Below, piece by piece: positions 720 through 39,141 of a stretch of 45,130 bases of DNA. The stretch comes from a virus. The stretch is from positions 1 to 45,130 of IMG/VR virus record IMGVR_UViG_3300035670_000398, one strand, 5' to 3'. The position numbers and the translations under genes are program-made. A model generated the notes under the pieces. The model did not search any database. It was not told the origin of the DNA and was given only the letters and a program-made list of their open reading frames with translations. The stretch's first letter is position 1, and each line of letters begins with the position of its first letter.

Positions 720-735
720 TGGCACGAGAGATGCT
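720..735 (+). promoter_or_regulatory. Sigma-54 (-24/-12) promoter P1, upstream of terS
   Basis: The sequence TGGCACGAGAGATGCT fits the RpoN consensus TGGCACG-N4-TTGC at every fixed position except one (A for T at the first base of the -12 box). The GG (721-722) and GC (733-734) are exactly 12 bases apart, as required. Transcription would start near 746, about 90 bases before terS. A short dyad (736-754: ATGTAGTA, loop GCT, TACTATGT, with two G-T pairs) follows directly. Confidence 0.82.
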
Positions 736-750
736 ATGTAGTAGCTTACT

Positions 751-822
751 ATGTTAAAAGATATAATCGAACAAGCACCATTAAGTAAGACGGGGGAAGT
801 GGGGATCAAATGGAAAAGATAA
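751..822 (+). CDS. Possible 23-residue leader peptide
   Basis: An ATG at 751 opens a 23-codon frame ending TAA at 820-822, just downstream of the predicted P1 start and 12 bases before terS. There is no clear ribosome binding site. It could be a leader peptide or chance. Confidence 0.22.
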   Translation: MLKDIIEQAPLSKTGEVGIKWKR

Positions 823-834
823 CTACGAAAGTAG

Positions 835-1242
835 ATGCCTGACATCAATCAACAAATAGTAGTTGCCTACGAGGAAGCAGGGTTAACTCCAGAAGAGATC
901 GCAGCCGATCTAGAGATGGAATTAACCGCGGTCAAACTAGCTTTAGCCCAGTCCAGTGCAACCTATCGTAAGGCAATAGGAAAGGAGACAGAAGATATCT
1001 CCGATAACGAAGTTATCGAGATGAAGGAGATTATAAAGGGTATTGCTCGCACACAGCAGTTTGATAATCCAGGTGTAGCATTAAAGGCAGCTACATGGGT
1101 TTATAACGAAAAGAAGGGGCGCAATGACTTACAAGTAATGAGAGACAATCAAGTAAACGTAGTTATTTTCAATGAACGTCTTTCTAGGGCACGTGAACGA
1201 ATGTTAGAGATGAAGAAGGAAGCTAAGCTGATTGAAGTTTGA
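835..1242 (+). CDS. terS: Terminase small subunit (putative)
   Basis: This 135-residue helical protein lies directly before the large terminase. Its N-terminal 45 residues look like a helix-turn-helix (AGLTPEEIAADLEMELTAVK, about 15-34), the usual DNA-recognition region of small terminases, followed by a helical oligomerisation region and a basic, Met-rich tail. It would bind the packaging site and regulate the large subunit. A stop codon precedes ATG 835 in frame, so the start is fixed, although the ribosome binding site is weak. The stop overlaps the terL start by 11 bases. The assignment rests on position, size and the HTH pattern. Confidence 0.72.
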   Translation: MPDINQQIVVAYEEAGLTPEEIAADLEMELTAVKLALAQSSATYRKAIGKETEDISDNEVIEMKEIIKGIARTQQFDNPGVALKAATWVYNEKKGRNDLQVMRDNQVNVVIFNERLSRARERMLEMKKEAKLIEV

Positions 1243-2734
1243 TTTCACAACGCCCTTTGAGTTTGTTACCCTTTATGATGAGCATCTACTCTCAGGTAGA
1301 GCATCGCTTCATGGTTGGCAAATAGAAACTCTAGAGAAACTCGGTCAGGTGAAACCTAGCGAGGCGGTGCCTTATCGTTTAGCAATGGTAGCTGCAAATG
1401 GTAGTGGGAAAGACAAGTATATAGTCGCACCATTTTGCTTATGGTTCCTATTAAGTAAACTTAACTCAAGAGTGATAGTAACATCAGCCTCCGCACAACA
1501 GTTAGACTCACAAACCGAGAATTACATCCGTAGATTAGCTCAACACTTTAATAAGGAGCATGGTGAAGAAATCATTAGAGTCGTCAAGCGATACATATCA
1601 TGTCCGCTCACTGGCAGTGAGATACGATTGTTTGCCACAGATGAAGCTGGAAAAGCGGAAGGTTATCATCCACTGGAGCCAGGAGCAGAGATGGCCATTG
1701 TCTGTGGCGAGGCTAAGTCCATCGCGGAAGATATCTATGAAGCCCTGGGAACATGTAGTGGATTTAATTACTGGATAGATATCTCAACGCCAGGTGTGCC
1801 ACTAGGGACATTCTATCGAATGGCAACTGAAGGTGCAAAGCATGGAGTAGATTTCAAAAGAGTAACATCATATGATTGTGCACATATAAGTAGAGAGACA
1901 ATCGAGTTCGATAAGTTCCGCTATGGGGAGAACTCACCAAGGTTTCGCAGTAAGCACTTAGCCTTATTTACTTCCCTTGATGGTGCATACATTCTAACAA
2001 GAGAGATAATTGATAAATACATAGGTAATGTATCCGAGCGTAGAGATGGTATCAAAAGGGCCGGCTTAGACTTTGGCGCAGGCGGCGATGAAACAGTTTT
2101 ATCTGTCTGGGATGGCAACACACAAATAGCCTCAGATGGTTATACCAATGAAGATACAGAAGCAACTGTCCGCTGGGTTATACAGAAAATCAAAGAATAT
2201 TCCCTCGACCCAGGTCGCATATTCGCCGATGATGGTGGTGTCGGACGTGGAATGATATTCAGCTTGCGCGATAAAGGATATGATGTCAATAGATGTTTAG
2301 CCCAGTCGCCGGCAATAGATAAGAGAGACTTTCTCAATAGGGGTGCAGAGCTGTGGTGGAGCTTTGCAAGATGCTATGAAGCAGGGATGTTAAAAATATT
2401 ACCAAACAAAGTACTTATTGAACAGCTCTCTACACGCAAATATAAGCAACCTTCTGGTGGCAAGATAAGATTAATATCGAAGAAGGAAATGAAAGCCGAA
2501 GGCTTGCCATCACCAGACCATGCTGATGCTGCCATTTTAGCCCATACGGGACGCGGATTAGAGTCCTATATGGAACTGCCTAGGGATAATGGTAAAGTAA
2601 CTGTATCTGCTATGTCGACTAAAGATATAGAAGCAGAACTTGAGAGGCGACGTTACGGCGGAGGACGAAGTGATTTAGTAGTAAAAGCAATAACAAATCC
2701 AGCTTTGCTGGTAAGGAGGTTACATGAGCGATAG
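1232..2734 (+). CDS. terL: Terminase large subunit (packaging ATPase/nuclease)
   Basis: This 500-residue protein has the two-domain layout of large terminases. The Walker A loop is AANGSGKD (about 54-61). The RNase H-like nuclease acidic residues are in LDFGAGGDE (about 280), ADDGG (about 332) and PDHADAA (about 429). It powers DNA translocation into the prohead at the portal and cuts the concatemer. The start is a TTG at 1232, because a stop codon lies immediately upstream in frame and the first ATG would remove the N terminus. It overlaps terS by 11 bases and the portal gene by 11 bases, implying translational coupling. Confidence 0.93.
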   Translation: MKFDFTTPFEFVTLYDEHLLSGRASLHGWQIETLEKLGQVKPSEAVPYRLAMVAANGSGKDKYIVAPFCLWFLLSKLNSRVIVTSASAQQLDSQTENYIRRLAQHFNKEHGEEIIRVVKRYISCPLTGSEIRLFATDEAGKAEGYHPLEPGAEMAIVCGEAKSIAEDIYEALGTCSGFNYWIDISTPGVPLGTFYRMATEGAKHGVDFKRVTSYDCAHISRETIEFDKFRYGENSPRFRSKHLALFTSLDGAYILTREIIDKYIGNVSERRDGIKRAGLDFGAGGDETVLSVWDGNTQIASDGYTNEDTEATVRWVIQKIKEYSLDPGRIFADDGGVGRGMIFSLRDKGYDVNRCLAQSPAIDKRDFLNRGAELWWSFARCYEAGMLKILPNKVLIEQLSTRKYKQPSGGKIRLISKKEMKAEGLPSPDHADAAILAHTGRGLESYMELPRDNGKVTVSAMSTKDIEAELERRRYGGGRSDLVVKAITNPALLVRRLHER

Positions 2735-5717: not shown

Positions 5718-5729
5718 CCTAGCAAGGCT

Positions 5730-5745
5730 TGGCATGGAATATGCT
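5730..5745 (+). promoter_or_regulatory. Sigma-54 (-24/-12) promoter P2, upstream of the capsid gene
   Basis: The sequence TGGCATGGAATATGCT has GG at 5731-5732 and GC at 5743-5744, the exact 12-base RpoN spacing. It closely resembles P1 and P4 (TGGCAYG, purine-rich spacer, ATGCT). It sits in the only sizeable gap of the head operon, 13 bases after the scaffold stop, and would start transcription near 5756, giving the capsid gene its own mRNA. Confidence 0.82.
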
Positions 5746-5852: not shown

Positions 5853-7136
5853 ATGCCTAATCAAATTGATCTACCAGCATGTGCAAGTCTGTGGACCGAA
5901 CAGGACCGCACTTTGTATAACAAGCTGGATTTTTACTTGGCTAAAACCCAGGTAGATTACTTCAAACGGTACAATCGTTGGCAGAAGGTTCTCTCTCCTA
6001 TTAAATGGAGTGCTAACCAAGGGCCGACGATGAAAGGTGTCCGAAAGGTTCGTCCGCCGATCCTTCGTGGACAGTTTCTCCCTAACGCTATTGACTCCCT
6101 TTCTAAGAAGGATGTCATTGAAGTTCGGGAAACGAGCGAGCAAGTCAAGGTGTATAAGCATCGCTTCGAGTCACAACTGATGCAGTTCCTTCCGTCCTTC
6201 CAGGACTTTATGAACGATCACGTTGATAAGACTAACGAAGGGATTGTTGAGCTTATCGCTGCGAATGTCGACATCTTCTATCGCACAGCTATCTTCCACG
6301 GATCTCCGAATGTGTGGATTGCTGGCAAGAAAGGTGGCACTGCTGAGTTGACTGGTATGCAATGGTGGCAGTCTCCTACTATTGCTTTGTCTAAGACGGC
6401 TGCTGAACTTAAAGCAAATCTGTTGCTTGTCGGTAGTAATCTTAGCCTTAAGCAAATCAGTAAGGCTGCATCAACTATGGAGTTGGACCTTGGTGTTACT
6501 CCTTACAGCGGTGGCGAACTGGCTGATGGCACTGATGGTAAAGCGTTGACTGGTAAGTATCTTCTTATCACTTCTAGTGAAGTGTGGAATAACTTCCCAT
6601 TTGATAGCTTCCTCCAGGAGAATCGTCAGATTGACTTGAACATCGTTACTCAAGGTTTTACTGGCTCCCTTTGGGGTCGTATTACTGCTATGTTCGAGCG
6701 GTTCCCTATGCGTCTGGATGCTAATGGTAACGTTGTGGCTCCTGAGACTGTAGTTATGGATGCTAATTCGTACGCTAATGGCGATACGGTTATGAATCCT
6801 GACTATGTTAATGCGCCGTTCGAGGTTGCGTTCCTGTGTGGGGCTGAAGGATGGAAGTCTATCCAAGTTGGTCCTCCGCCTAAGGACTTCGCGTCTGGTG
6901 AGATGTCTATGAAGGCATTTCGCGCACTTGACTGGAATGGTAAAGTGCAAAAGACGAAGGATGTTATGGTCAACTGTCTCAATGAAGCTGGTGCTGTTGT
7001 GCAGGATCTTAACAAATACGGTGAATACTTGCAGTTGATCTCTCAGATTGCTATGGGTATTCTTCCTATTCAACGTAAGAACATCGTTCCCATCATCTTC
7101 GCTCGGCAGCGTGTTGGTGCGAGCGTTAACGCTTAA
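5853..7136 (+). CDS. Major capsid protein
   Basis: This 427-residue protein follows the scaffold and has its own promoter and structured leader, as expected for the most abundant virion protein. Its codon use shifts towards GGT, GCT and CGT compared with the neighbouring genes, a sign of high expression. It presumably has the HK97 fold; the subfamily is not recognised. There is no clear ribosome binding site within 15 bases of ATG 5853, which is odd for such a gene, while the next gene has a good one (AAGGAG). Confidence 0.87.
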   Translation: MPNQIDLPACASLWTEQDRTLYNKLDFYLAKTQVDYFKRYNRWQKVLSPIKWSANQGPTMKGVRKVRPPILRGQFLPNAIDSLSKKDVIEVRETSEQVKVYKHRFESQLMQFLPSFQDFMNDHVDKTNEGIVELIAANVDIFYRTAIFHGSPNVWIAGKKGGTAELTGMQWWQSPTIALSKTAAELKANLLLVGSNLSLKQISKAASTMELDLGVTPYSGGELADGTDGKALTGKYLLITSSEVWNNFPFDSFLQENRQIDLNIVTQGFTGSLWGRITAMFERFPMRLDANGNVVAPETVVMDANSYANGDTVMNPDYVNAPFEVAFLCGAEGWKSIQVGPPPKDFASGEMSMKAFRALDWNGKVQKTKDVMVNCLNEAGAVVQDLNKYGEYLQLISQIAMGILPIQRKNIVPIIFARQRVGASVNA

Positions 7137-7148
7137 GGAGATACGACT

Positions 7149-20547: not shown

Positions 20548-20549
20548 TT

Positions 20550-23500
20550 ATGGGCCAGCTAATTGAAGATGCTCTGCGTTCGCGTGGCTATGATCCTGCT
20601 CAATGGGATATAGATGACAATGGCAACGTAATTAAGAAAGCTCCGGCACAGCCTACCACGAACGAATCTCCAGACCATTATGGTCAATTGGAGAAGCAGA
20701 CTGGTGTCTTTGAAGCTTTTGCTCGTGGTGCAGCAGAAGCAGTAATTCCAACTGGTGTTGGTATGGCTGCTGGCGGAGCTATTGGTAAAGCTGGTTTAGC
20801 CAAAGCCCATCCAGTCGCCGCAATATTAGCTCCATTGGCAGGTGGCATAGCTGCCTCTATGGGAACTGCTGCGGTACAAAATCAGGTTTTAGGTAAAGTG
20901 GCACCAGAGTTTCGCAAGCGAAGTGAGCAAGCTTATACTGAGCATCCAGTGGCAACAGCCCTAGGTTCGTTTGCTGGTGCTGGTCCTTATATGTCCATGA
21001 GGAACTCCGCCAAAGTCTTAGGGGAAGCAGGGAAAGGTTTAGCTAGGATTCGTGAATTTGGTGGTAAAGTAACAAGTTCGGAAGCTAATGCTCTTTTAAA
21101 TGTTGGACTTGGTAGTGCAGTTCAAGGCGGCATGGAAGGTGTCCGGCAAATTCAAGAGGGTGATCTTGACCTTGGAATGTTAGCATTAAATCTAGCAGGC
21201 GGTGCTGCTATTAACGAGCCTCGCAAATGGACTAAAATAATGGGGCTATCCCCTACTGATTTCAATGATCCTACTCGTAGAGCGCATTGGAAAGGTGGCG
21301 AAATTGCTACTGGTGGTAAATCTGTTGATGTAGATCCAAGTGTAATTGCCGAAGAAAAGGCTGCTGCTAAAATTGTGGCGGATAAAGTAGAAGCCGAAGG
21401 CAAGGCAAAAGAGGTTGCTAGAGAGGAATATCTTAATAAAGTAGTTATCCCTGAGAAAGAACAGCGTCTCCAGGAGCTTGCCCACCTAACTGAAATCTCT
21501 CGTGATCCTTACGAAGTTCGGCAAGCGAGATTAGAGATAACGGAGTTGCAGAAGCAAATAGGTGCGCTACGTGGAGAGTTTCCTGTAAAGGATATTATTG
21601 ATCCCTCATTAGGTAGTAAGGCTAGACAGAAGATTGAAAGTCAGGCTGCCAAACTTGAACGCGAGAACGCAGAGCGTCTAAAAGGTCTTACTAAAGGAAC
21701 TGATTTTGAAATTACTACTGAAAAACCAGTAGACGAAACTGCTAAGCTCACTGAGGAAGTGGGTTTAGACTTAGCTATTGCTACTCCAGAAGTCCGCGCC
21801 GAAGCTGTCACTAAAGCCAGAGAGAGTCTTTACTCATTGCTTGCCCAACGCTATATGGCAGTAGAAAGTGGTGACAATGTTGCTGTTGAGAAGCTAACTG
21901 GTGATATTAATAGAGCGAAGAAAGTCATTGAGAACTTTGGAGAGAAGAAGCCCACAGCTAACGCTATCCAACCACAACGTGTTGCTGATGTTGAAGCTGC
22001 CTTTAAAGCTGATGAACAAGCTAGACAGGAAGCGAAGGCCAAGGAGTCTCTTGATGTAGCTAATAAAGTCGCCGAAGAAATGGAACGGCGCGAACGCGAC
22101 TTCAACCTACTTGCCGCCGAACAAGAGGCAACTAAGCAGCGCGTAGCTGCCGAACAAGCTAAAGCCCATAGTGATGCATTGCAGAAGGATTGGGATGCTA
22201 AGATAGCTGCACGGAAGGCAGAGAGGATTGCTAACGAGCAACGTATCGCTGCGGAGCAGAAAGCACAGCAAGAAGCAATTAAGAATAGTGAAGATTTCGC
22301 TGCGCTTAACGCCAAGATTGACGCGGACGTAAAGATGAAACTCGCTAAGGAGGCTGCTGACTATGATGCCTATGTTGCCAACAAAGGTGAGGTAAAACCT
22401 CCGGTTAAAGTTGAAGAGGCTTTGTCTCCGGAGCCTATTGGTGATGTGGCTGCTAGTCGAAAGCTTTATGAAGAAGGTCAGAAGAAGATTGAAGCTGAGA
22501 AAGCAGAACAAGATCGTATTGCCAAAGAAGAAGAACGTATTGCTAGGGAAGAAGCAGAAGCTGCTAAGCCTGAGAACCGCCTAAAGGTAATTGATGAATC
22601 ACTGGCGGAAGTTACTGCACAACGTAAAGCTATTGCTTCTAAAGCTGCTGTTGATAAGAAAGCTTTAGCAGAATATAAGAGGCTTACTGCTGAGATAAAT
22701 GAGCTTAAGACTGCAAGAAAGGATGTAGAGGGGGAGCTAACTGAGAAACCTATTGGACAGAAACCTGTTGAGAAGTCCCCTACTCAAAAGAACCTTGAGA
22801 CTCTTGCAGAAGTTAAAAAAGATATAAAGCTAGTAGAAGATGATACTAAATATCAAGAAGGCAAGCTTTATGGAGTTCCTGAGCTTGATACAATGCACGA
22901 AGCACAGCTTGCCAAAGCAGGTAAGCCCCGTGAACAGTTTGTTAAATGGGTAAAGGATTCTCTTGCTAAGATTCGCGGTGTAGAGATTCGTGCAGTTAGA
23001 AAGGTTATAGGTTCTAAGGGTCAAGAAGTCTATGGTAAATCCGCTGGTAACAAGGCAGAAGTGTCAGTTGAGAAAGGTGAAGTAGATACTTGGATACACG
23101 AGACATTTCATCCGTTCCTCGAATCATTACTCAATTCAACCAGTAAGACTGATAGGACGTACGCAGAACGTATGTTAAAGCAGCTTGCTGACACTAAAGA
23201 GTTTGGCGAATATTGGAAAGCTGCTCACGGAGTGGAACTCCCTAAGGAATTTACTCCTATACAAGATGGCGTAGCCCATCCAATGCTTGATGAATTTATC
23301 ACGCAATTAGTTGGTGATCGTGGAGTTGAGAAGATATTTCTAGAGAAAGATGGACTTCGTAAGTCGTGGCGTGACTTTTGGTCACACATGAAAACTCGTC
23401 TGTCAACTGGTAGTAGGGAGGATATCTCTAGGGTGTTTACTAATATGCTATTCAATAAGCCTTTGGATAGTGATATAGTATATAGGGGACGAGAGGCTAC

Positions 23501-26500
23501 GCTAGTTACGCCTAGTGGTGAGAAGGAACAGGGTGAAAAGTCCTTCGATCAAATGCGTAAAGCCGCAGGGATGACTGATGAAGAACTAAAAGCTACAAAT
23601 GAAAAGGTTGCTAATCGCAACGAAGAGTTGTCAAAGACAGGGTATAAGGTTGCTCGTTATGGTAAGGATGGGAAAGTAGAGAGAATAGATGATGTTGGGC
23701 CAGAGGCCAAGTATCAAGGTGATAAGCCAGTTAAAGGTTGGTCTAATGAGCTTGATGAAAAGTACTTAGCTGCAAAGGCTGCTGGAAATGTTGGACAAAT
23801 GGAATGGGCATTAAAGAACGCTTATGCTCAATCCATCTATGCAAAACATCCGCCACAAGACAGGCTTACTGATCCCTCTGTTTATGGTGGTTGGCTAACT
23901 CCAGGTGGTAGAGTTATTACTGTTGATGAAGCTCGTCATGCGAGTGTAATACCTAAAGAGTTTCAATGGCTAGGTAATGCTTATGATAGAATGTTTGGGC
24001 TTGGCTTTGTACGGTTTCAACTAGGTGGTAAAGAAGTCCATCTTGAAGGTAACAAACTATCATGGGGACAGCAGAAAACTATTGATAGGATGAAGCAAGA
24101 TTTTGGCATTGAAGTTGGAAGCCATTTGGAACTTGAGGGTAAACAGCCAGAACTTGAGACCTATGTTAAAGGCGAATTAATCCCACCAGGGCGTAGGACT
24201 ACTTGGGACTTTAAAGGAGTAGACAGACAGGGCGAGGATATGTTTGCTTATACTCCTAAAGGTAAAGATGGGTATAAGTATCAAGGCGACCAAGAATATC
24301 TAAAGTTAGCTCAAGATCCAGAAGGTAATAAAAAAGAACTACAGAGGATGGTAGATGAGGCAGCGAAGAAGTCTGGATATATGATTGGTCCAGTTTGGCA
24401 TTCAACGGACAAAGGAAATTTTAATGTTTTTCAGCAGCAGCCAATTAGCTTTACTGGCGGGGAAGGAACCTTTGGCCATTTTGGATCATTACGGCAAGCA
24501 GAAAAGTTGTTTAAAAATACAAGGGAATTTGCTGATTGGGCCAATAGCCAATTATCATCTACAAAAGAAAATAAAATCAATCCATCCCTTCGCAGCTTCT
24601 ATTTAAAGGCTGATAAAATTCATAGAGTTCAAGATGATCCATCTTGGGCATCCTGGGGATTGCAAGCAGACACAGCAAGAAAGCGCGGATTCGATATGCT
24701 TGTGTACAAAAACAAAGTTGAAGGTAGTGGGGATAGCTATGTTCCACTTAATTCACCTAATCAAATCAAGTCTGCAGACCCCATTACCTATGACGACAAT
24801 GGTAACATAATCCCACTCCCAGAAAGATTCAATACTGAGTCTAATGATATTCGTTATCAAGGCGACCTACCTCCCACTTCTCCTGCTGATTACTATACTC
24901 GTATAGGCTCAGCATGGCTTAAACCTGTCCGCTCAACTATTGATAAGATCGCAGCCAACGGAGATAAAACCCATCAATATGGTGCAGAACGCTTGCGTCG
25001 AATGGGCAATGAAGCTACTCACCTATATGGTCAATATGGTAACAAGCTAATTGAGCAAGTCACCAGACTTATTAAATCCCCCGTCGAGATTGCCAAGGGA
25101 ACTTCGGACAGTGTTGATAAAGTCTATAAGTATATGCAGGAGGAACGAGATAGAGTTCCCCATACTGTAGAACTTGTTGGTGATGAGGTAGATGTTCACG
25201 CGAAGCTTCGTGAGATTATTGTTGCCATGCAACAGGAACAACTTCGCGATGGACCAAATGTTAAATACTTTGATAAAGATAAGAAGGAGTGGATCAATCG
25301 CGCTCCTATTAGTGATCCAATGTATATTATGCACTCACTCGATGATGGAGTGCTAGATATATTGAACAATCGCCGGGGTTCGCAAGAGTTTAAAGACTTA
25401 TATGACGAGTATATAAACTACCACATGGGTAAAGGTCTTACTCGCGATCAAGTTGTTGAACAGTTCCGCAACATCTTCGAGTCTAAGGGTGGTGAAAAAG
25501 GTCTTACGTTCAATGCACTTCGTTTAGCAGAAGGTGCTGGATTGCCTCCTAGTTGGCGGCAGAAGTCCTTCCCCCTAGCTCTACGTCGCTATGCACAGAG
25601 ACACGCTGCGGACTTAGCCTATTATCGCCATATCCAAAAAGACCCGAGGGCACGAACTATCTTCAACGAAATCGATGATGGTAAAACTATTGGCAAAGCT
25701 ACCAACGTTGATGAAGTGGATGGTGAAGCTCTCTATTCTATTCGTGATTCGGATGAAGTTAAGTCTATTTTCCGCCAGATAACACACGATTATCCTTTTA
25801 GCGAAGCTAAACTTAACGCCCTGAATCGCCTTATTAAGTCTGGCATGATGCAGACTGTTACTGGTATTCGTGATGTGATCGCTACTCCGTTTATAGCGAT
25901 GGAGAATTTGAAGCCTACGGAGCTGCCACTAATGTTGGAAGCTGCATTGAAGGTTAAAGAAGGTTACAAGAAGGGTTATGATGAAGGAGTTATCCGCCGT
26001 GGTACTACTGCTTGGCAGGACTTCGGAGAAAGTAACAAGACTCTATTCATTGATAATATCAGCAACCTAATTAATAAGGTTACTGGTCGTGAAGCTCTAG
26101 AACAATTCGCCAGAGCTTACACTATGGAACTTGGGCGGCTAGTTGCCGAGAGTCGTAAGGGGAGTGGTGACACTGAGTTCTTCGACCGTTTTGGTCCTCC
26201 TGACTGGCAAGCTAAAATGGAGGCTAATGCTAACGAAGTGTTAGACTTCGCTGCTGCTAGGTTTGTTGAAGCTAATCAAGGCACTTATGATTATCGTGGG
26301 CTTCCAGCTTATGCACTAGAAGGACAACTTGCTCCATTCCTTTCACTAGCTAAATGGTCAACTGAACGGTTGAATAACTTTGATAAGGCAGTTATACAAG
26401 AAGCTAAGAAAGGCAACCTTCGGCCTTTTGTAATGGCAACTATTGGTGCTGTAATTGGTGGCGAAGCTATTCAAGCAGCAGTTGAATATATCAATGATAA

Positions 26501-27242
26501 GAAGCCAGAGCAACTTACTTGGAGCGAGTTTCTAGGGCTAGGCGGTAAGGATGCTGCTTATCGTTATGCTGCTATTGCGTCCGCATCAGGCTATGCTGGT
26601 ATCCTAGGTGACTTAACCAAGTCAGGATTGGATCTTTATCATGGTACAGAAGCTCGTGGTTTAACATTCCCATTAGTTGATGCGGCGGCTGAAGCCTTTA
26701 CTCGCTTTGGACAAGCTGCTGAGGCTGCGAGGGATGGTGAGAAGGGTATCTATCCTGAGCTTGCACTTAAGTTGATTAATGATAATATCCAACTTAGTCG
26801 CGTCATTTCTAACGCTACTGCTAGTCCTGAGGAAAAGACTCGCAAGGCGGATATGCGAGACTTGCGGCTGTACGAACGGATAGAGGAAAATAAAGTTAGT
26901 AACAAGTTTGGTGAAGCTAACCCCTTCCGTGGTAATATTCAACGGGAGTTTAAACGGGAACTTGAACCTACGAAGATTGTAGAGAAGTTACCAGAAGTAC
27001 TTGCGGAAGCTTTTAAAAGGGCTGGTAATGACCCTTATAAACTAAAGCGTGAGCTTATTAATTTGAAGATGGCCGGACAACGGATAATGCCTTCGATTAG
27101 TGAGTCGCCAATTAGCTTTGCTAGCTACCTACTCTATCTCCGCAAAACTCAAGGTGACGAAGCTGTTGCACAGAAGCTGCAACGATATATCAAGTCTCAA
27201 GTTGCTCAAGACTTGCGGAGTGATATTATACCTTCTATTTAA
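20550..27242 (+). CDS. Giant multidomain (polyvalent) internal virion protein with protease-like and ART-like domains
   Basis: The start is ATG 20550; a GTG at 20538 is possible, but AAGGTGG then lies on it. The product is about 2,230 residues. In order: an Ala/Gly-rich hydrophobic segment (about 65-115, membrane-active?), long charged helices (250-760), an HExxH motif in WIHETFHPFLESLL (His 850, zinc-protease-like), a small domain with VHLEGNKLSWGQQ (1060-1240), an ADP-ribosyltransferase-like domain (WHST, FYLKADKIHRV, LNSPNQIKSADPITYDDNG; about 1270-1430) of the kind described in phage polyvalent proteins, and an 800-residue helical part with hydrophobic stretches. KYQ-type linkers recur at Tyr 768, 1055, 1244 and 1436. 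It probably enters the cell with the DNA. Confidence 0.82.
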   Translation: MGQLIEDALRSRGYDPAQWDIDDNGNVIKKAPAQPTTNESPDHYGQLEKQTGVFEAFARGAAEAVIPTGVGMAAGGAIGKAGLAKAHPVAAILAPLAGGIAASMGTAAVQNQVLGKVAPEFRKRSEQAYTEHPVATALGSFAGAGPYMSMRNSAKVLGEAGKGLARIREFGGKVTSSEANALLNVGLGSAVQGGMEGVRQIQEGDLDLGMLALNLAGGAAINEPRKWTKIMGLSPTDFNDPTRRAHWKGGEIATGGKSVDVDPSVIAEEKAAAKIVADKVEAEGKAKEVAREEYLNKVVIPEKEQRLQELAHLTEISRDPYEVRQARLEITELQKQIGALRGEFPVKDIIDPSLGSKARQKIESQAAKLERENAERLKGLTKGTDFEITTEKPVDETAKLTEEVGLDLAIATPEVRAEAVTKARESLYSLLAQRYMAVESGDNVAVEKLTGDINRAKKVIENFGEKKPTANAIQPQRVADVEAAFKADEQARQEAKAKESLDVANKVAEEMERRERDFNLLAAEQEATKQRVAAEQAKAHSDALQKDWDAKIAARKAERIANEQRIAAEQKAQQEAIKNSEDFAALNAKIDADVKMKLAKEAADYDAYVANKGEVKPPVKVEEALSPEPIGDVAASRKLYEEGQKKIEAEKAEQDRIAKEEERIAREEAEAAKPENRLKVIDESLAEVTAQRKAIASKAAVDKKALAEYKRLTAEINELKTARKDVEGELTEKPIGQKPVEKSPTQKNLETLAEVKKDIKLVEDDTKYQEGKLYGVPELDTMHEAQLAKAGKPREQFVKWVKDSLAKIRGVEIRAVRKVIGSKGQEVYGKSAGNKAEVSVEKGEVDTWIHETFHPFLESLLNSTSKTDRTYAERMLKQLADTKEFGEYWKAAHGVELPKEFTPIQDGVAHPMLDEFITQLVGDRGVEKIFLEKDGLRKSWRDFWSHMKTRLSTGSREDISRVFTNMLFNKPLDSDIVYRGREATLVTPSGEKEQGEKSFDQMRKAAGMTDEELKATNEKVANRNEELSKTGYKVARYGKDGKVERIDDVGPEAKYQGDKPVKGWSNELDEKYLAAKAAGNVGQMEWALKNAYAQSIYAKHPPQDRLTDPSVYGGWLTPGGRVITVDEARHASVIPKEFQWLGNAYDRMFGLGFVRFQLGGKEVHLEGNKLSWGQQKTIDRMKQDFGIEVGSHLELEGKQPELETYVKGELIPPGRRTTWDFKGVDRQGEDMFAYTPKGKDGYKYQGDQEYLKLAQDPEGNKKELQRMVDEAAKKSGYMIGPVWHSTDKGNFNVFQQQPISFTGGEGTFGHFGSLRQAEKLFKNTREFADWANSQLSSTKENKINPSLRSFYLKADKIHRVQDDPSWASWGLQADTARKRGFDMLVYKNKVEGSGDSYVPLNSPNQIKSADPITYDDNGNIIPLPERFNTESNDIRYQGDLPPTSPADYYTRIGSAWLKPVRSTIDKIAANGDKTHQYGAERLRRMGNEATHLYGQYGNKLIEQVTRLIKSPVEIAKGTSDSVDKVYKYMQEERDRVPHTVELVGDEVDVHAKLREIIVAMQQEQLRDGPNVKYFDKDKKEWINRAPISDPMYIMHSLDDGVLDILNNRRGSQEFKDLYDEYINYHMGKGLTRDQVVEQFRNIFESKGGEKGLTFNALRLAEGAGLPPSWRQKSFPLALRRYAQRHAADLAYYRHIQKDPRARTIFNEIDDGKTIGKATNVDEVDGEALYSIRDSDEVKSIFRQITHDYPFSEAKLNALNRLIKSGMMQTVTGIRDVIATPFIAMENLKPTELPLMLEAALKVKEGYKKGYDEGVIRRGTTAWQDFGESNKTLFIDNISNLINKVTGREALEQFARAYTMELGRLVAESRKGSGDTEFFDRFGPPDWQAKMEANANEVLDFAAARFVEANQGTYDYRGLPAYALEGQLAPFLSLAKWSTERLNNFDKAVIQEAKKGNLRPFVMATIGAVIGGEAIQAAVEYINDKKPEQLTWSEFLGLGGKDAAYRYAAIASASGYAGILGDLTKSGLDLYHGTEARGLTFPLVDAAAEAFTRFGQAAEAARDGEKGIYPELALKLINDNIQLSRVISNATASPEEKTRKADMRDLRLYERIEENKVSNKFGEANPFRGNIQREFKRELEPTKIVEKLPEVLAEAFKRAGNDPYKLKRELINLKMAGQRIMPSISESPISFASYLLYLRKTQGDEAVAQKLQRYIKSQVAQDLRSDIIPSI

Positions 27243-27263: not shown

Positions 27264-28550
27264 AGTGAGTTTTACAAAGTAAGTTGCTACTGCTCCATCT
27301 GCTTTCATGTCTAGTTGCTTAGTTGTGACTAGCACATCTAAAACTTCTTGTAGTTCCAATTTACTAACTTCTTCTGCAAATTCAAAAAGTAATTCATTGA
27401 GTGTTTTCTTGCCATTCTTTCGCAAGTGGCCGACAATCTTTTGACCAATAGGAGTTAGCTCATTACGAGCCTTAGTCGCCAGAGCCATGTGCATAGTGCG
27501 TTCTGCGGTTTCAAGTAATATCATTGCACAATGAATATCATGCAATGTAATAGTCATATCGAGTGAGTTCGTGAAATGAAGTGCTGCTGCTAACTTCAAG
27601 ATATGCATTTTCTTGCGGCCATAGTAGTAATCTAATTTGTAGTTATGGTTAGTACGATAAGCAGGTAGATGTTGCTTATGCTCATACCAATCTTTCAAAT
27701 AGCCATAAGCAGCAGGCTCAAGTGTCAATGGACCGCAAAGTGTAGAGAGAGCTTTAAGATGATCTAGTATGTTTAGCTTTGCAATCTTCTGATTCTCATC
27801 TAACTCTCCCATTCCAAAGTTATAAAACCTATTCTTCTCTGCCCATACGAATATAGTCCGCGAAGCAAAACCTTCATTCATCATCTCACTACTGAACACT
27901 TTCCGCATGAACTCAGGAGTAGTGCCAGCTAGAAGTGTAACACACATCTTCTTGATTTCATCCTTACCATTGTTGAAGGTAGAATGTTTGAAGTTACCAC
28001 AATCCCATGCGCGAGTTAAAAAGCGAGCTATGTCGATTGTCTCCTTCTGTTCATGAAATAAATCGAATAATTCTTCTAGTACAAAGGCAGAACTACAATG
28101 TCCATAGGGAACAGGCTTGCCATCTATGAATTGCTTTACTGGGAAGTAACTGGCGGCTATATGGTTAGTAAGTGAGCGGAGAGAAGTTGAATCTGGTAAC
28201 GTAGGAAACAGTTGCTTTTCCTCCGCAACTGTAGCTTCTGATAACACTTTAATAAACTCATCTTCTGCTAGTTGAGTTATATTAATATCCATTCCTTTCT
28301 GTCTCTTATGATATTTAAGTAGGTCAGAGACTTGTGTAATTACACGACCTTTACCAATAGCCGGAGGACCAGTTAAGATAACAAATGTATTGCAGTAGCA
28401 ATTAACAGTACCAAATGGATACCAAACCCTACGCTGTAGAGCAGCTGATACGAGGGATATAAGTCCGAAGTCAATGAATATATCTGGCGACTCTACTTCC
28501 TTCATGTAGAGTCTCCATTGTTCAGATATTGTCATTGTAGCTACGCTCAT
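27255..28550 (-). CDS. P-loop ATPase, DUF3987-like (putative replicative helicase)
   Basis: This 431-residue protein has the Walker A motif GPPAIGKG (61-68) after a short beta strand, preceded by an N-terminal region about 60 residues long. A conserved-looking VLEELFDLF segment (Glu pair, Walker B-like) lies near 160. The layout resembles the DUF3987 family of phage and plasmid helicase/primase-like ATPases. No other replicative helicase or primase is recognised, so it may fill that role. It is the last gene of the leftward operon and overlaps the polymerase piece by 4 bases. Confidence 0.62.
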   Translation of the reverse strand: MSVATMTISEQWRLYMKEVESPDIFIDFGLISLVSAALQRRVWYPFGTVNCYCNTFVILTGPPAIGKGRVITQVSDLLKYHKRQKGMDINITQLAEDEFIKVLSEATVAEEKQLFPTLPDSTSLRSLTNHIAASYFPVKQFIDGKPVPYGHCSSAFVLEELFDLFHEQKETIDIARFLTRAWDCGNFKHSTFNNGKDEIKKMCVTLLAGTTPEFMRKVFSSEMMNEGFASRTIFVWAEKNRFYNFGMGELDENQKIAKLNILDHLKALSTLCGPLTLEPAAYGYLKDWYEHKQHLPAYRTNHNYKLDYYYGRKKMHILKLAAALHFTNSLDMTITLHDIHCAMILLETAERTMHMALATKARNELTPIGQKIVGHLRKNGKKTLNELLFEFAEEVSKLELQEVLDVLVTTKQLDMKADGAVATYFVKLTKV

Positions 28551-30409
28551 TTTAATTCTCCCCAGTTAAATCCTATGGCAGTTTCACTACGCATTGTAAA
28601 TTTCTCACCCCGCAGAGTTATTAACTCCTGTTCCATAAATTGCTTAGCCATGCGGCTACATTCACTCTCCTGTCCTATGGGACATTGAAGCAGATAAGAG
28701 TCATGTTTATTATTTAATACGTCCCAAGGTAAATTATTATCTTCGATATAATATTGCATTTCAGTTACTGCAATATTCGTAATTGTACCTACTGTTGATT
28801 GCGGGATAAAAGCATAAGCCTTTTTGAACAAGTCCGGCCCCCATGCACCATGGAACTTACGAGGATAACCTTGCAGGTTGCGGAGAGTTTTAGTCATCCC
28901 TAACTGTTTCTGTATCTCCATGTGCCACTCACGAATTTCAGGGAATAGAGTATGATAAGTAGCAAGGAACTTAGTTGCTTCCTCAATAGAGAGGCGGATT
29001 TGACCTTCGGAATTTTTTAAAACGTTAATAGCAAACTCAGGAGCCTGGATACCGTAATTGGCAGAATTGCCCGTTATTGATATTTTACCATTACGGCGAA
29101 TTAAGAAAGCGCCGCTAGAGACAGTAGGACAATAAACAATTCCTTTATAATGAACTGTGCTGTTTGTATTTCTAACCCTGCCGAACTTTCTGTTGTTTAT
29201 ACCAGCTTTCCAGCAAGTTCCAGACTGTGCTATAGTAGCTTGCCTGCCAATTAAATGGCAAATAGTCTTAACCCATTCTACATTCTCTTTGTACTGAGAA
29301 GTGTAATCCTCTCTTTTATGACAATAAGATTCAGTAAATGAACCATCCCAGTATTTTAATTCATCTATAAAAATAGATAACTCAATCAATGACAGATTAA
29401 GTAACTTGCTTGAGAACCTTTTTTCTCCAGCAGAATTCAATAAAAAATCTGTGTATTTTTCAACTCCCTTTATATAATAATCATGGCAATGGTCATCTAT
29501 CTTTAAGGTCCATGTTAATCCAGGAATTGCTGAAAGTAATTGCTCAAGCCTACCAATTTTTCTAGGTTTAGAGAGTCTGAATCTAATGGCAGATTTATTA
29601 GCTATGTACCCATCTGCCTGTGTAGCAACAATAAATTTAATTTCATCATCGGAAAACATTCTAACATTTTCAACGTACCCTGTATTTGGAATACGGAGTT
29701 CAGCCATTTTAACTAGATCAACAGCTTTCTTTTTATGTATTATATTGTTAGTTTGATATAATACTTGATGGTCAGGAGTAACTAATTGATCTATTTCAGA
29801 ATGATGATAATGAAACATTGTGCCATCATATAACTGATGGTGCCATGCGGATGGAGTCTCAAATGATACACTGAAATTATTCCATATTGCAATCGGCTCA
29901 TTAGGCATAGTGCCAATAGGCACCCATCCATTACGAGTAAGAACTTCTGTCTGTTCATCTACACAATGACACACTTGCTTCGCCATGTAGTAATAACGAC
30001 GGGCAGATGGCCAGTTATCAGAAGCTTTAATAATGGCTTCAATCTCTTTCCACTTAGGGTCAGCTATAAGCTCCTTTGGACCCATAGGAATATATGGGTC
30101 TAAAGCATAACCAAGTTCGGCGGCGAACTGTTCGCGGAATAAGTGCAGTCCTACAAATACATGAGATTTAATGCGATTAAGAAATAAGTCTCGGAACTTA
30201 CCATGACGACAGAGAAAGGCTACTACTAATGCTTCTGCACCAGCTTGATCTACTTGAACAAATATATATCCAGCATCAGGGACATAGATTTTACATATAG
30301 GTTTAGATGGATTTTGGAGGTTGGTTCCCCATATATTAAATATCTTCCTAGATGCTAGGCGGAATGTGTCTGTCTTACCTAGAACCCAGGAGCATGAGTT
30401 TCTAGGCAT
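28547..30409 (-). CDS. DNA polymerase family A, C-terminal (polymerase) fragment with intein
   Basis: This 620-residue product contains the polymerase half: TDTFRLASR and GTNLQNPSK (13-35), motif A FVQVDQAGAEA (Asp 54), motif B split by an intein (MAKQVCH before, SANYGIQ after) and motif C KHDSYLL (Asp 570). The usual motif C Glu is Ser, and the motif A DYSQIE is DQAGAE. Without the 300-residue intein the fragment is 320 residues. The exonuclease half is a separate gene 0.6 kb upstream. It starts at ATG 30409, overlapping the preceding small gene by 8 bases. Confidence 0.88.
   Translation of the reverse strand: MPRNSCSWVLGKTDTFRLASRKIFNIWGTNLQNPSKPICKIYVPDAGYIFVQVDQAGAEALVVAFLCRHGKFRDLFLNRIKSHVFVGLHLFREQFAAELGYALDPYIPMGPKELIADPKWKEIEAIIKASDNWPSARRYYYMAKQVCHCVDEQTEVLTRNGWVPIGTMPNEPIAIWNNFSVSFETPSAWHHQLYDGTMFHYHHSEIDQLVTPDHQVLYQTNNIIHKKKAVDLVKMAELRIPNTGYVENVRMFSDDEIKFIVATQADGYIANKSAIRFRLSKPRKIGRLEQLLSAIPGLTWTLKIDDHCHDYYIKGVEKYTDFLLNSAGEKRFSSKLLNLSLIELSIFIDELKYWDGSFTESYCHKREDYTSQYKENVEWVKTICHLIGRQATIAQSGTCWKAGINNRKFGRVRNTNSTVHYKGIVYCPTVSSGAFLIRRNGKISITGNSANYGIQAPEFAINVLKNSEGQIRLSIEEATKFLATYHTLFPEIREWHMEIQKQLGMTKTLRNLQGYPRKFHGAWGPDLFKKAYAFIPQSTVGTITNIAVTEMQYYIEDNNLPWDVLNNKHDSYLLQCPIGQESECSRMAKQFMEQELITLRGEKFTMRSETAIGFNWGELK
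29066..29965 (-). other. Intein (300 residues) with LAGLIDADG-like insert, in polymerase motif B
   Basis: Residues 149-448 of the polymerase fragment. The N-terminal splice block is CVDEQTEVLTRNGW with Cys 1, and the block B histidine is in LVTPDHQVLYQ. The C-terminal end is ISITGN followed by Ser +1, so the last residue is Asn with Gly instead of the usual His before it. Two motifs, FIVATQADGYI and FIDELKYWDGSF, look like paired LAGLIDADG helices of a homing endonuclease. Removal rebuilds AKQVCH-SANYG, the polymerase O-helix. It is in frame with no stops and so is probably active in splicing. Confidence 0.9.
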
Positions 30410-30619: not shown

Positions 30620-31015
30620 TTACATGATGATATGAGTAATGAGAGTAGGGTCAACATTACTAATAGTTTGATCTTGTGGTTCATACGCAAGTAGTTCAAA
30701 TTTGCCATCTGTTATTGTAGCGAAAACATTCATGGCATGAGTCTCAGTTAATGCTACACCAAAGGCGACTTCTTTCCCTGGAGGTTTATCAGCTATCCTT
30801 GCACACCAAAAAGCAAAGAACGCGAAGTTATCACAATCATTACAGGTGCGGACATAAGTAGAAGCGGAAAGTGCTTTGAGATTAAATTTAAGAACCTTTG
30901 AATAGTTCTGCTCAACTGACTCTCTAGTTGGCAGAGCGTACGCTTCATCCAGAAGGATAATGTTTGCATCTGGGAGTAGTTCGTATAGTTCATTTAACAA
31001 GTCGGAACATCGCAT
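30620..31015 (-). CDS. Transglutaminase/papain-like fold small protein (putative)
   Basis: This 131-residue protein has TYVRTCNDCDNFAFF (Cys 61, Asp 62) and ETHAMN (His 93, Asn 96), then a beta end with EPQDQTISN. The order Cys-Asp, then His-x-x-Asn resembles small phage proteins of the transglutaminase-like cysteine-peptidase fold. It sits between the two halves of the DNA polymerase, and its start overlaps the end of the exonuclease fragment by 22 bases. The role is unknown; peptidase activity is an inference. Confidence 0.55.
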   Translation of the reverse strand: MRCSDLLNELYELLPDANIILLDEAYALPTRESVEQNYSKVLKFNLKALSASTYVRTCNDCDNFAFFAFWCARIADKPPGKEVAFGVALTETHAMNVFATITDGKFELLAYEPQDQTISNVDPTLITHIIM

Positions 31016-32547
31016 ATATCAGCTGCCTTTCTTATTCTAGTTGTTTCAATGGGGTAATCAGTCACTTTGCAAGAGTCACCTTGCCGCCAGGGAATTGCCT
31101 TTAGCGTCCCGCTTTCTTTTTTAAGACGTCTATAGTCTAGGATTATGGGTATCAATGGATGGGAGTTATTAACTGCCAACTTCAATAGAGCTTTCTCATC
31201 AAGAGACGGTGCGCCAGTCGCGGTGCGCTTTAGGACAGGGAATCCCATATCCTCATGAAAGTATTTAACACACTGCTTACTGGAAGTAGGTAAGAAGTCT
31301 CTACCTATTAAGGCTTTACAGATTCGTAGGTATTGAGTCATCCATGCATCATTGTGCGTCATCATCTTATCTATCTTCAAGGGGTCTATTCTCATCCCTT
31401 GAATAGACATTAGTAGATAGGGATAGATAGACTTGTTTACTTGCTCAATAGATGATTGACATCTACGAAGTTCTGCTTGACGTAGTTGTTCATCTTTAAT
31501 GAACTTCATTGTTACTACGTCTTTACCATTATACGCCCAAAGAGCACGTTCTTGTTCTTCATTCTTTGGTTCAAAGACTCCTTCGGACTTATGGTAGGGC
31601 ATTGAGGTATAGAGAGAGACACAGTGTCCCAGGGACTTTTCAATCCCGACATTAATGCGGCTAGCGGCGAGCATTGTGTCATATATATTTCTGCCAAATC
31701 CAACTCCATAGTTAGTTGCAAGAACGAACAAGTCAAACATGGAGTTATGAGCAACGACTGTACATCGCTGACAGGCGATAGAGAGTGCGGCGAAGAACTT
31801 ACAGAGTAACTCTTTATCATAAGCTAGTTCACCGTTATAGCGGTTAATTGGTACTACATATACCGTAGGTAAATATCTTCCGATAGCAAAGCCAATACAA
31901 CTTAACTGACGAAGTCCGTCAGTTTCGATATCTAGAAACAACTCCTCCTTATGTATTGTTGCAGCCAGTAACGAGGTAACTAATTGAATTGGCGGATATA
32001 TCTCGTACTTTGCATACGAGACTTGTTTAGCTATGCTATCGGAATTTGTTAAAAATGCTTTAGCTCTTTTGGTATCTTGTTCGAGCCAGAATCTATAATT
32101 CTTTCTACTTGTTTTTGCTGCCGTGCTTTTCTCGTCGCCATCTTCTTCATCTTCTGACTCAAATTGTACCTCTGGTTTCGTACGAGACTTATGAGACTTT
32201 TCATAGTTCTTAATATCAAAACAATCTTGAGGGAAATAAGATGCAACGTGGACTATGCCATCACGAACGTATGGACAACCACGTTGTTGATCTAGTGAAT
32301 GTTCCAAAGGGATACGAGAGCGCATTGCTTGAGTTCCAAGAAGCAATGCTACTTTAGTATCAGGAAGTAGTGGAGAGATGTCCTCTGCTACGCGAAGGTC
32401 TACGTTACCTTTATTAATAGGTGATAAGTAACGTAAGAACTCTTGACCTGCATAGCCAGAGAGCAATCGTTCAGTATCAAACCTGGAAGGGTTTGACATG
32501 ATGATTGTTAAGCCACTATAACGTAGCTTAGGTTTTTCTCTGAACAT
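30994..32547 (-). CDS. DNA polymerase family A, N-terminal (exonuclease) fragment with UDG-like front domain
   Basis: This 517-residue product. Residues 1-125 look like a degenerate uracil-DNA-glycosylase fold (VALLLGTQAM, then QQRGCPYVRDGIVHVASYFP), as in some phage family A polymerases. The 3'-5' exonuclease follows, with ExoI LFLDIETDG (about 203), ExoII VVAHNSMFDLFVLA and ExoIII YNGKDVVTMKF, all catalytic acids present. The polymerase thumb begins (SSKQCVKYFHEDMGFPVLKR, then DYRRLKKESGTLK) and the protein stops just after a T-x-R-I motif that is repeated at the start of the C-terminal fragment. Both fragments are needed for a whole enzyme. Confidence 0.86.
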   Translation of the reverse strand: MFREKPKLRYSGLTIIMSNPSRFDTERLLSGYAGQEFLRYLSPINKGNVDLRVAEDISPLLPDTKVALLLGTQAMRSRIPLEHSLDQQRGCPYVRDGIVHVASYFPQDCFDIKNYEKSHKSRTKPEVQFESEDEEDGDEKSTAAKTSRKNYRFWLEQDTKRAKAFLTNSDSIAKQVSYAKYEIYPPIQLVTSLLAATIHKEELFLDIETDGLRQLSCIGFAIGRYLPTVYVVPINRYNGELAYDKELLCKFFAALSIACQRCTVVAHNSMFDLFVLATNYGVGFGRNIYDTMLAASRINVGIEKSLGHCVSLYTSMPYHKSEGVFEPKNEEQERALWAYNGKDVVTMKFIKDEQLRQAELRRCQSSIEQVNKSIYPYLLMSIQGMRIDPLKIDKMMTHNDAWMTQYLRICKALIGRDFLPTSSKQCVKYFHEDMGFPVLKRTATGAPSLDEKALLKLAVNNSHPLIPIILDYRRLKKESGTLKAIPWRQGDSCKVTDYPIETTRIRKAADICDVPTC

Positions 32548-34543: not shown

Positions 34544-35059
34544 TTAATGAGTCACTTCAATAGTCAACTCAGGGGCTTTCTTAGTAATGTTATCAACGCG
34601 GATACCAAAGGAGACAATGGGATTACCACTCTCGTCCAACATATCCTCTTTGACTACATCACCAGCAGCGTCAATAACTTCCTTCTGCTGCCGACGTTCC
34701 TCAGAGCTAAGGATAGCCTTAGCACCAAGTCCCTTGTAACGCTGAACGTAGTCCTTCATGAACTCACCGTCCTGCTCGTTGATCTCACCAAGCTCAAGCC
34801 CCATCATTTCATGGAACGCTTTGAGCCGACCAATCGCCTTAGCCGTGAGGAAATAGCGATTAGTAGTTTTAAGCCCAGCGATAGCCTTATCGCCAATCTT
34901 CTCAGGAGTAACGATCTCCCAAGTCAATTCGATATAAGGAGTAGCGTTCGCGTTCTGGCTAACCTTAAAGTCAGCTTCGATACAACGGATGCCATAGACA
35001 TCACGCAGAATACGAATACCACCACTTGTCGGAGCTTGTCCTTCAGTTAGGTTTAACAT
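34544..35059 (-). CDS. SSB-like or DUF669-like DNA-binding protein (putative)
   Basis: This 171-residue protein has a beta-rich N-terminal half (YGIRCIEADFKVSQNANATPY, then IELTWEIV), an alpha part (AKAIGRLKAFHEMMGLELGE) and a long C-terminal tail. The pattern matches small phage OB-fold-like proteins next to Sak-type recombination genes. It lies downstream of Sak4 and the P4 promoter. Codon use suggests high expression, as expected for a single-strand binding protein. It may function with the RecB-like nuclease. The fold assignment is tentative. Confidence 0.5.
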   Translation of the reverse strand: MLNLTEGQAPTSGGIRILRDVYGIRCIEADFKVSQNANATPYIELTWEIVTPEKIGDKAIAGLKTTNRYFLTAKAIGRLKAFHEMMGLELGEINEQDGEFMKDYVQRYKGLGAKAILSSEERRQQKEVIDAAGDVVKEDMLDESGNPIVSFGIRVDNITKKAPELTIEVTH

Positions 35060-35087
35060 ATGTGTTGTTTTTGTTGTTTTTGTTTAC

Positions 35088-35105: not shown

Positions 35106-35109
35106 AAGT

Positions 35110-35481
35110 CTAGTTAGTCTTGCGAAGACATTCTACTTCGTTCTTCAATTCTTGAATAATAAATTTAAGCTCATTGATAGTGTCATCCTTACTATCACAA
35201 TCTTCCTCAAGAGATTTAACATCACGCTTCAAATCACTAATGTCATCTTCAAGAGACTCAACTTCATTGTCTCTTGAATTAACTCCATCTTCATAACCAA
35301 AGTCATATTGAGTTTCATCACCTTTAGACAGGGCTTTACTTACAACACCTTCTATCGCCTTAGCCTCTAGGTTGGTTAGCTTAGTCCAATCAATCAACTT
35401 ATCTGACCGTCCCTCAGCTCTGGCAACAGAGTCATTTATACGTTCGATTAGTTCAGTAGCGTTCATAGTAGCATCTTTCAT
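35110..35481 (-). CDS. Coiled-coil protein downstream of Sak4
   Basis: This 123-residue protein, whose C-terminal half (about 60-120) is a nearly uninterrupted coiled coil (DDISDLKRDVKSLEEDCDSK), overlaps the Sak4 stop as ATGA. An internal ATG at 35466 (MNATELIERIND) is also possible and would start close to the predicted P4 transcript end. The function is unknown. Confidence 0.62.
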   Translation of the reverse strand: MKDATMNATELIERINDSVARAEGRSDKLIDWTKLTNLEAKAIEGVVSKALSKGDETQYDFGYEDGVNSRDNEVESLEDDISDLKRDVKSLEEDCDSKDDTINELKFIIQELKNEVECLRKTN

Positions 35482-35485
35482 GCCA
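35470..35485 (-). promoter_or_regulatory. Sigma-54 (-24/-12) promoter P4, at the Sak4 end
   Basis: Minus strand TGGCATGAAAGATGCT, nearly identical to P1 and P2, with GG at 35484-35483 and GC at 35472-35471 at the required 12-base spacing. It overlaps the Sak4 stop codon and the next start. A transcript would begin near 35459 and serve the SSB-like gene and further genes to the left. Confidence 0.7.
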
Positions 35486-37633: not shown

Positions 37634-37851
37634 AAATATTTACTTACATCTACACCGAATTGTTTAGCCATCTCACCGAAAGCAGCAGCGGCAGGATCAA
37701 TAGCAACTTTACGTTTATCTATAGACTTACCTGTTGGTTTCTCTTTAGGTCTACATACTTCAAGGTAACGAGAGAAATAGTTCTCTATCTCCTTATCACT
37801 CATTGCCTGGAGTTTTTCCAGTGATGGAATCCCTAAGTCGTTTAGGTTCAT
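37630..37851 (-). CDS. Unknown 73-residue protein
   Basis: This short, Lys/Glu-rich helical protein (LEKLQAMSDKEIENYFSRYL) with ATGA overlaps on both sides may be an accessory of the nuclease gene that follows. No motif is recognised. Confidence 0.58.
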   Translation of the reverse strand: MNLNDLGIPSLEKLQAMSDKEIENYFSRYLEVCRPKEKPTGKSIDKRKVAIDPAAAAFGEMAKQFGVDVSKYL

Positions 37852-38423: not shown

Positions 38424-38424
38424 A

Positions 38425-38459
38425 TAAATAAAAATCGGGTGAGTATAACCCCCTCACCC
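38425..38459 (-). terminator. Rho-independent terminator after the P3 gene
   Basis: Minus-strand GGGTGAG (38459-38453) pairs with CTCACCC (38443-38437) around a 9-base loop, followed by GATTTTTATTTAT. The stem and T-run are well formed. It makes the 170-residue gene a single-gene transcript from P3 and reduces expression of the recombination genes downstream. Confidence 0.85.
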
Positions 38460-38549
38460 ACGGGTTTCTAGGATTGTTCTATAGTATTAACGTGACGGTG
38501 CAGAGGTTAATCTAAGATATACCCTAGCCTACCAAATAATCCACCAGCC

Positions 38550-39062
38550 TTATTCAGTAGGAGCTTTAGCGAGACGAGATTGCAGCAAGGCAATCTTCTG
38601 GAAGATAGCCATGCCTTCATCGGGCGTAAGCGTACCTTCACGGAACGCAGCCAACGCTGCATTAAGTTCCGCTTCGATCTGCTTGCGAACACCAGGCACT
38701 CGTTCGCCAGGCTTGTACTCAAGGGCTTCCTTTACCGAGAAGATAAGACCCTTGATATCATCATTGACCGTAGCGGCCAATTCCTCAAACGCTTGAGCCT
38801 CAACCTGAGGCGTCACGTTACGAGGCAACTTGTTAGTCTTAACCTTATTAGCAATACGCAACTTAACGATTGCATTGATAAGGCCAGCGGTTTCATCTTT
38901 GCCAAAGAGTTCATCAGCTTGCGCGCCGGACTCAACCGACGGATAAGCATACTTAAGACCCTTGGCTGGCCCATCTTCAAACTGTCCAAGGAGAATCTTA
39001 ATCCCGTTGTCAGTAGTTTTGAGGACGACCACCTGCTCTTGTTCTTTCGTTTGTTCAGCCAT
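38550..39062 (-). CDS. 170-residue protein, single-gene sigma-54 unit (unknown)
   Basis: The product begins MAEQTKEQEQVVVLKTTDNG, has a beta-rich front half and an Ala/Glu-rich helical second half (NDDIKGLIFSVKEALEYKPG). There is no signal or enzyme motif. It lies between a sigma-54 promoter and a terminator, with codon use like the capsid gene, all of which point to heavy expression. An abundant DNA-binding or virion-associated protein is my best guess. Confidence 0.75.
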   Translation of the reverse strand: MAEQTKEQEQVVVLKTTDNGIKILLGQFEDGPAKGLKYAYPSVESGAQADELFGKDETAGLINAIVKLRIANKVKTNKLPRNVTPQVEAQAFEELAATVNDDIKGLIFSVKEALEYKPGERVPGVRKQIEAELNAALAAFREGTLTPDEGMAIFQKIALLQSRLAKAPTE

Positions 39063-39108
39063 ATACTATTGTGTTTTGTTGTTACTGTTTCACCGAGGCA
39101 ACCGCCCC

Positions 39109-39129
39109 TGCGATAGCACAGATATCGCA
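39109..39129 (-). promoter_or_regulatory. Perfect dyad starting at the P3 -12 element
   Basis: Minus-strand TGCGATA, loop TCTGTGC, TATCGCA: a 7-bp perfect inverted repeat. The left arm starts at the TGC of the P3 -12 box, exactly as the P2 dyad does. It covers the predicted start of transcription, so it could be an operator. Confidence 0.7.
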
Positions 39130-39141
39130 AGAACCATGCCA
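39126..39141 (-). promoter_or_regulatory. Sigma-54 (-24/-12) promoter P3, downstream of the activator gene
   Basis: Minus strand TGGCATGGTTCTTGCG, with GG at 39140-39139 and GC at 39128-39127 (12 bases apart). The -12 box TTGC is perfect. The -24 box lies 5 bases after the stop codon of the activator gene. A start near 39115 gives a leader of about 53 bases before ATG 39062. Confidence 0.85.

Follow-up and report, generated by a model that had tools for sequence, protein, structure and literature searches.

Sites and genes in the window

The window, meaning the whole stretch of DNA analysed here, is 45,130 nt long and covers positions 1 to 45,130 of virus record IMGVR_UViG_3300035670_000398. 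It contains four sites resembling sigma-54 (-24/-12) promoters, P1 to P4, and a gene for a predicted sigma-54 activator (Table 1). Exactly four matches to TGGCAYGNNNNWTGC were found, at 720-734 and 5730-5744 on the plus strand and at 35471-35485 and 39127-39141 on the minus strand. Dinucleotide shuffles of the window (n = 100) gave a mean of 0.08 matches and none reached four. The initial annotation had placed four sites fitting TGGCAYG-N4-WTGC at exactly these positions and had estimated about 0.1 by chance.

As the TGGCAYGNNNNWTGC pattern was derived from the four sites themselves, an independent test was run with a position-specific scoring matrix (PSSM) built only from 29 intergenic ChIP-supported Salmonella sigma-54 sites (PMC3844500 Table 3). 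P1-P4 outscored every other site in the window, at 16.5-17.9 bits against 14.8 bits for the next, and lie within the range of the Salmonella sites themselves (14.6-20.4 bits). Window shuffles (n = 500) gave a mean of 0.44 sites of at least 15 bits and none of the 500 gave four. This -24/-12 matrix scan against shuffled sequence had been suggested in the initial annotation as a check, and the sites passed it. In all four the GG and GC elements are exactly spaced, and the sites fit a known sigma-54 matrix.

P1, P2 and P3 are intergenic and point towards downstream genes. Transcripts are predicted to start at about 745 for P1, with a leader of about 90 nt, and at about 5756 for P2. P3 precedes a 170-aa gene and the replication block. 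The earlier claim that all four sites lie in gaps or at gene junctions held for these three and failed for P4, which is outside any gap and shares bases with the start codon of ORF 35110-35481; its transcript start would therefore fall inside that ORF. If real, P4 would serve 34544-35059 and the genes after it. Three relatives (G014, G015 and G042) have P4-like sites before their members of this downstream family (F16). P4 was rated uncertain because of the start codon overlap, despite this resemblance. P1-P3 are strongly supported as sigma-54 promoters, without transcript data; support for P4 is weaker. Ahead of P1, the noncoding left end contains a strong terminator-like hairpin (200-232, plus strand) with 14 pairs followed by a T run.

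Table 1. Promoter-like sites and the genes served by or near them
Feature	Position	Strand	Description
P1	720..735	+	TGGCACGAGAGATGCT; predicted -24/-12 promoter before terS/terL, 17.9 bits, intergenic
Putative small terminase	835..1242	+	First gene after P1; position before terL
Large terminase	1232..2734	+	Homologue L107:9188-10987 matches annotated terminases
P2	5730..5745	+	TGGCATGGAATATGCT; predicted -24/-12 promoter before capsid gene, 16.9 bits, intergenic
Putative major capsid protein	5853..7136	+	Target of P2; predicted structure match
P4	35470..35485	-	TGGCATGAAAGATGCT; -24/-12-like site, 16.9 bits but coding
Gene of family F39	38550..39062	-	First gene after P3, 170 aa; function unknown
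P3	39126..39141	-	TGGCATGGTTCTTGCG; predicted -24/-12 promoter just after activator gene, 16.5 bits, intergenic
Predicted sigma-54 activator	39147..39998	-	283 aa, stand-alone AAA+ domain, PF00158 match
Helicase-like gene	40055..41695	-	Directly upstream of activator; PHROG 62 DNA helicase, E = 5.8e-11

The protein encoded after P2 had no sequence-family match. A first structure model was poor (pLDDT 38). A model from a 37-sequence alignment reached pLDDT 82, and Foldseek gave the phage N4 capsid as its best match (E = 2.7e-10), with other HK97-fold capsids also matching. By this model the protein matches a major capsid protein with the HK97 fold. The small terminase and portal identities are inferred from gene position; the putative small terminase had a weak HTH-like Sigma70_r4_2 match below the cut-off. 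For the large terminase, Terminase_6C was found in one member of the phage family. The F39 gene had no Pfam or PHROGs match, and a site was present upstream in three of the four genomes possessing F39. The helicase family (F02) adjoins or stands near the activator in relatives. The helicase-like gene and the activator are presumed to belong to an early operon running on the minus strand from 45075 down to 39147. The early promoter of the activator was not located, sigma-70-like sites around this operon being no commoner than in shuffles. Elsewhere on the minus strand the DNA polymerase is seemingly split over two ORFs (28547-30409 and 30994-32547), which both match PHROG 17 and have small ORFs between them. 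On the plus strand, 20538-27242 encodes a 2234-aa protein without a PHROGs or Pfam match, which has relatives in some family genomes.

The activator and the phage family

The activator matched Sigma54_activat (PF00158) with E = 1.7e-57 and 194 bits (cut-off 20.2). Walker A (GQTGTGKE), Walker B (TLFLDEIG), sensor II (NVRS) and the loop GSFTGA were identified. No receiver domain and no C-terminal HTH match were found, and only about 21 residues separate sensor II from the end; in 79 of 80 bacterial relatives fetched at least 66 residues follow the AAA+ domain. By sequence, FlrA, FleQ, NtrC-type proteins and PspF are among its closest relatives of solved structure. Among PHROGs the best match was PHROG 7998 (E = 1.4e-42, residues 53-278), to which PHROGs gives no function, and there was a weak clamp-loader match (8.4e-07). 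The A2 to S change in the GAFTGA loop is shared with LevR, a validated activator, and validated activators likewise show the other variants seen in the family (F3Y, G5D and A6S) (PMC3162934). The phage activators stood apart from the bacterial ones in a tree and did not form one clean clade, and several branches were weak. The gene ends 5 nt before P3, as first annotated. No sigma gene had been visible at that stage; for sigma-54 this was borne out, as no sigma-54 domain was found in the window.

In one relative (G014:11773-12576, minus strand) an in-frame TAG lies inside the activator match, a possible start-site artefact or broken copy. Most activator matches in the phage collection were treated as bacterial, many being short or bacterial records and several annotated as chromosomal genes (glnG, atoC, zraR); only MT121960 was followed. 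This is the gut phage DP SC_2_H4_2017 (MT121960.1), unrelated-looking, with a distant sigma-54 activator gene at L006:19770-20684. It had no sigma-54 sites and no sigma-54 match, which counts against the interpretation preferred below.

A search with the capsid alignment, blind to the activator, gave 42 loci or contigs belonging to one uncultured phage family. Most brought in new contigs, and several were near-identical to one another. The capsid proteins were 26-41% identical to that of the window. Searches with the activator and its alignment gave ten contigs, two of them short fragments. The activator was present in 25 of 34 further records, the nine without it being fragments under 34 kb, and was encoded in 27/27 near-full-length genomes examined. 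A search of viral contigs with the large terminase of the window alone yielded no relatives. Among isolated phages there was no capsid match and terminases matched only at 22-27% identity. In a host search no capsid homologue was found in 388, 396 and 392 genomes of three phyla, in eight single genomes or in plasmids; these empty answers are weak evidence.

The motif TGGCAY-N6-TGC was present upstream of the capsid gene in 41 of 42 loci, roughly 120-260 nt before the reading frame. Among the near-full-length genomes a site preceded the capsid gene in 26/27 and the packaging operon in 24/27, and followed the activator gene within 700 nt in 21/27. In none of the genomes (0/27) did a site lie within 330 nt ahead of terL, helicase, primase or the activator. 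One or more further sites, absent from the window, lay upstream of the activator on its strand in 21 of the 27, a generous count in which up to 16 kb was considered. Positive feedback on the activator is possible in these relatives. Such sites mean that a simple cascade starting with the activator does not hold for every genome, and they also count against the preferred interpretation. Five relatives (G026, G028, G037, G038 and G040) have a further site 195-381 nt before F09, between the tail families F08 and F09, which is absent from the window.

Site statistics were obtained for the 27 near-full-length genomes (1.40 Mb) with the Salmonella matrix at a threshold of 15 bits. There were 177 sites compared to 16.1 in dinucleotide shuffles, and 7-30 when the second box was moved by one to three bases. 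Intergenic sites numbered 141, though noncoding DNA was 12.4% of the total by simple in-house gene calls. Between co-directional genes, 91 intergenic sites pointed with the genes and 1 against; a further 44 were in divergent gaps and none in convergent gaps. Site density was 12.7 per 100 kb compared to 0.7 in nine stretches of other tailed phages. Across the family records the forward pattern matched 191 times and the reversed pattern 9 times. Site position, orientation and spacing were conserved, and flanking sequence was not. Upstream of the 141 intergenic sites no fixed-distance element and no 8-mer or anchored composition above shuffles was found, distant enhancers being outside the scope of the analysis. 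No enhancer is proposed as nothing beyond shuffles was seen there, and the absence of a fixed upstream element fits an activator without a DNA-binding domain.

A proposed switch for middle and late genes

The window phage and about three dozen relatives appear to have their own ATP-driven switch protein and matching sigma-54 promoters before the capsid and other genes. For switching on virus assembly, the family appears to rely on a host sigma factor whose normal role is specialised. It is highly probable that sigma-54 (RpoN) controls a regulon of the window phage through an activator that the virus itself encodes; biochemical activity, timing and use of host sigma-54 are inferred, and there are no expression data. 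Host RNA polymerase with host sigma-54 would bind P1-P3, and possibly P4, as a closed complex that cannot start transcription unaided. Expression would begin with the activator gene, which lies in the presumed early operon. The stand-alone AAA+ protein would oligomerise, hydrolyse ATP, touch sigma-54 through the GSFTGA loop and open the promoters, with P3 leading to the replication block, P1 to packaging and P2 to the capsid and structural genes. Without sensory and DNA-binding domains the activator is expected to be constitutively active, so that timing would be set by when it is made. The missing DNA-binding domain also means that it probably acts enhancer-independently, activity on the sigma-54 holoenzyme being an inference. 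The presence and use of host RpoN are likewise inferred, with no host identified.

The initial annotation had inferred that early expression of the activator sends host RpoN-polymerase to middle and late genes. Judged from sequence, a late or middle switch via host sigma-54 is supported as the best reading of the conserved sites and the activator. Conservation of site position, orientation and spacing across a diverged family and the activator in all near-full-length members speak for it; P4 is uncertain, and timing and activator dependence are only inferred. The genes, the sites, their conservation and orientation and their co-occurrence with the activator were directly observed.

The sites could be real sigma-54 promoters fired mainly by host activators sensing the state of the host, the phage AAA+ protein being a booster or acting mainly on host genes. 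Sigma-54 bacteria usually have several activators (PMC3844500), but the DNA before the sites showed no enhancer-like word or fixed element of the kind that host activators normally need. In some relatives sites also precede the activator, and something must fire these first; however, the activator is in every near-full-length genome and, in 21/27, a site follows its gene within 700 nt. This alternative is considered improbable. It is very improbable that the AAA+ protein serves another function, as an ATPase of replication or packaging, and that a different protein binds the repeated motif, which would then not be a promoter. AAA+ proteins are diverse and the clamp-loader match leaves some room for another role, but the strength of the Sigma54_activat match, the retained sigma-54-contacting loop, the fit of the motif to an independent sigma-54 matrix at exact spacing, its direction towards downstream genes and a relative that encodes sigma-54 itself all stand against it. 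That P1-P4 are chance matches picked after the fact can practically be dismissed: the pattern was fitted to four sites, one of them in coding DNA, but the independent matrix, the shuffles, the spacing and orientation controls and the conserved position in 41/42 capsid loci exclude chance for the set, and only P4 alone could be a chance match.

The preferred reading, a phage activator working through host sigma-54, has parts of known kinds. Type Ic activators in bacteria include FleT of Rhodobacter sphaeroides, which lacks both domains, and FlgR and CtcC, without a DNA-binding domain (PMC3162934, PMC7175178). The phage protein is similarly an AAA+ protein with a GAFTGA-type loop and no DNA-binding domain, and like FleT it has no sensory domain. 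The bacterial proteins control cellular genes, whereas this one is phage-encoded and beside phage promoters. Compared to the Salmonella sigma-54 regulon (PMC3844500), the -24/-12 consensus and exact spacing are the same and the score ranges overlap, but the phage sites precede packaging, capsid and replication genes and no enhancer was found.

To our knowledge, the phage late switches studied so far use a sigma-70-type holoenzyme, replacement sigma factors or phage polymerases. T4 gp55 and SPO1 gp28/gp34 are phage sigma factors which redirect host polymerase in late switches (PMC9429907). The proposed system is alike in that an early phage product would send host RNA polymerase to middle and late promoters. 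It differs in that the phage would supply an ATP-driven sigma-54 activator, and in one lineage also sigma-54. The initial annotation knew of no phage with this arrangement, and a search of the open-access literature, with most subscription papers and preprints outside its scope, likewise found no precedent for a phage sigma-54 activator or sigma-54 late promoter. What would be new is the use of the parts as a phage middle and late switch. If true, a viral AAA+ activator that gates capsid expression through sigma-54 would represent a distinct class of viral transcription control, and infection success would be tied to host RpoN. Capsid promoters of uncultured phages would be predictable from sequence, and compact activators without DNA-binding domains would be available to biochemistry.

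A lineage with its own sigma-54

G043 (IMGVR_UViG_3300015360_000006), the full-length member that diverges most, had no canonical site. It encodes a complete sigma-54 of 488 aa among replication genes (L216:2730-4196). The AID (PF00309, 4.5e-13), core-binding (PF04963, 4e-32) and DNA-binding (PF04552, 9.4e-51) domains are in one protein. The gene sits between a Sak4-like gene and F16, with phage genes around it. Two other contigs (L248 and L249) have the same gene order and a 95%-identical sigma-54. G043 has TGGCATACTTCCAGCA before the capsid gene and TGGCACGCACATAGCT elsewhere, with a variant -12 element. The related G042 has intergenic TGGCACGCTCCCAGCT and TGGCACGCCCATAGCT and a TGC site before its capsid gene; no sigma-54 gene was seen in its partial contig. 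These variants suggest that regulation follows the same logic and that the -12 element has shifted, reading by the viral sigma-54 being inferred. We give even chances to a graded viral capture of sigma-54 control, in which most members have the activator only and use host sigma-54, and the G043 lineage adds a complete sigma-54 and drifted -12 sites to give a largely self-contained regulon. Such a lineage would be a natural experiment in the evolution of sigma-54 promoter recognition. The -12 variants with AGC for TGC were mostly intergenic and were located at 15749(+) and 25430(+) in G042 (L245-L246) and at 35657(-) and 47177(+) in G043.
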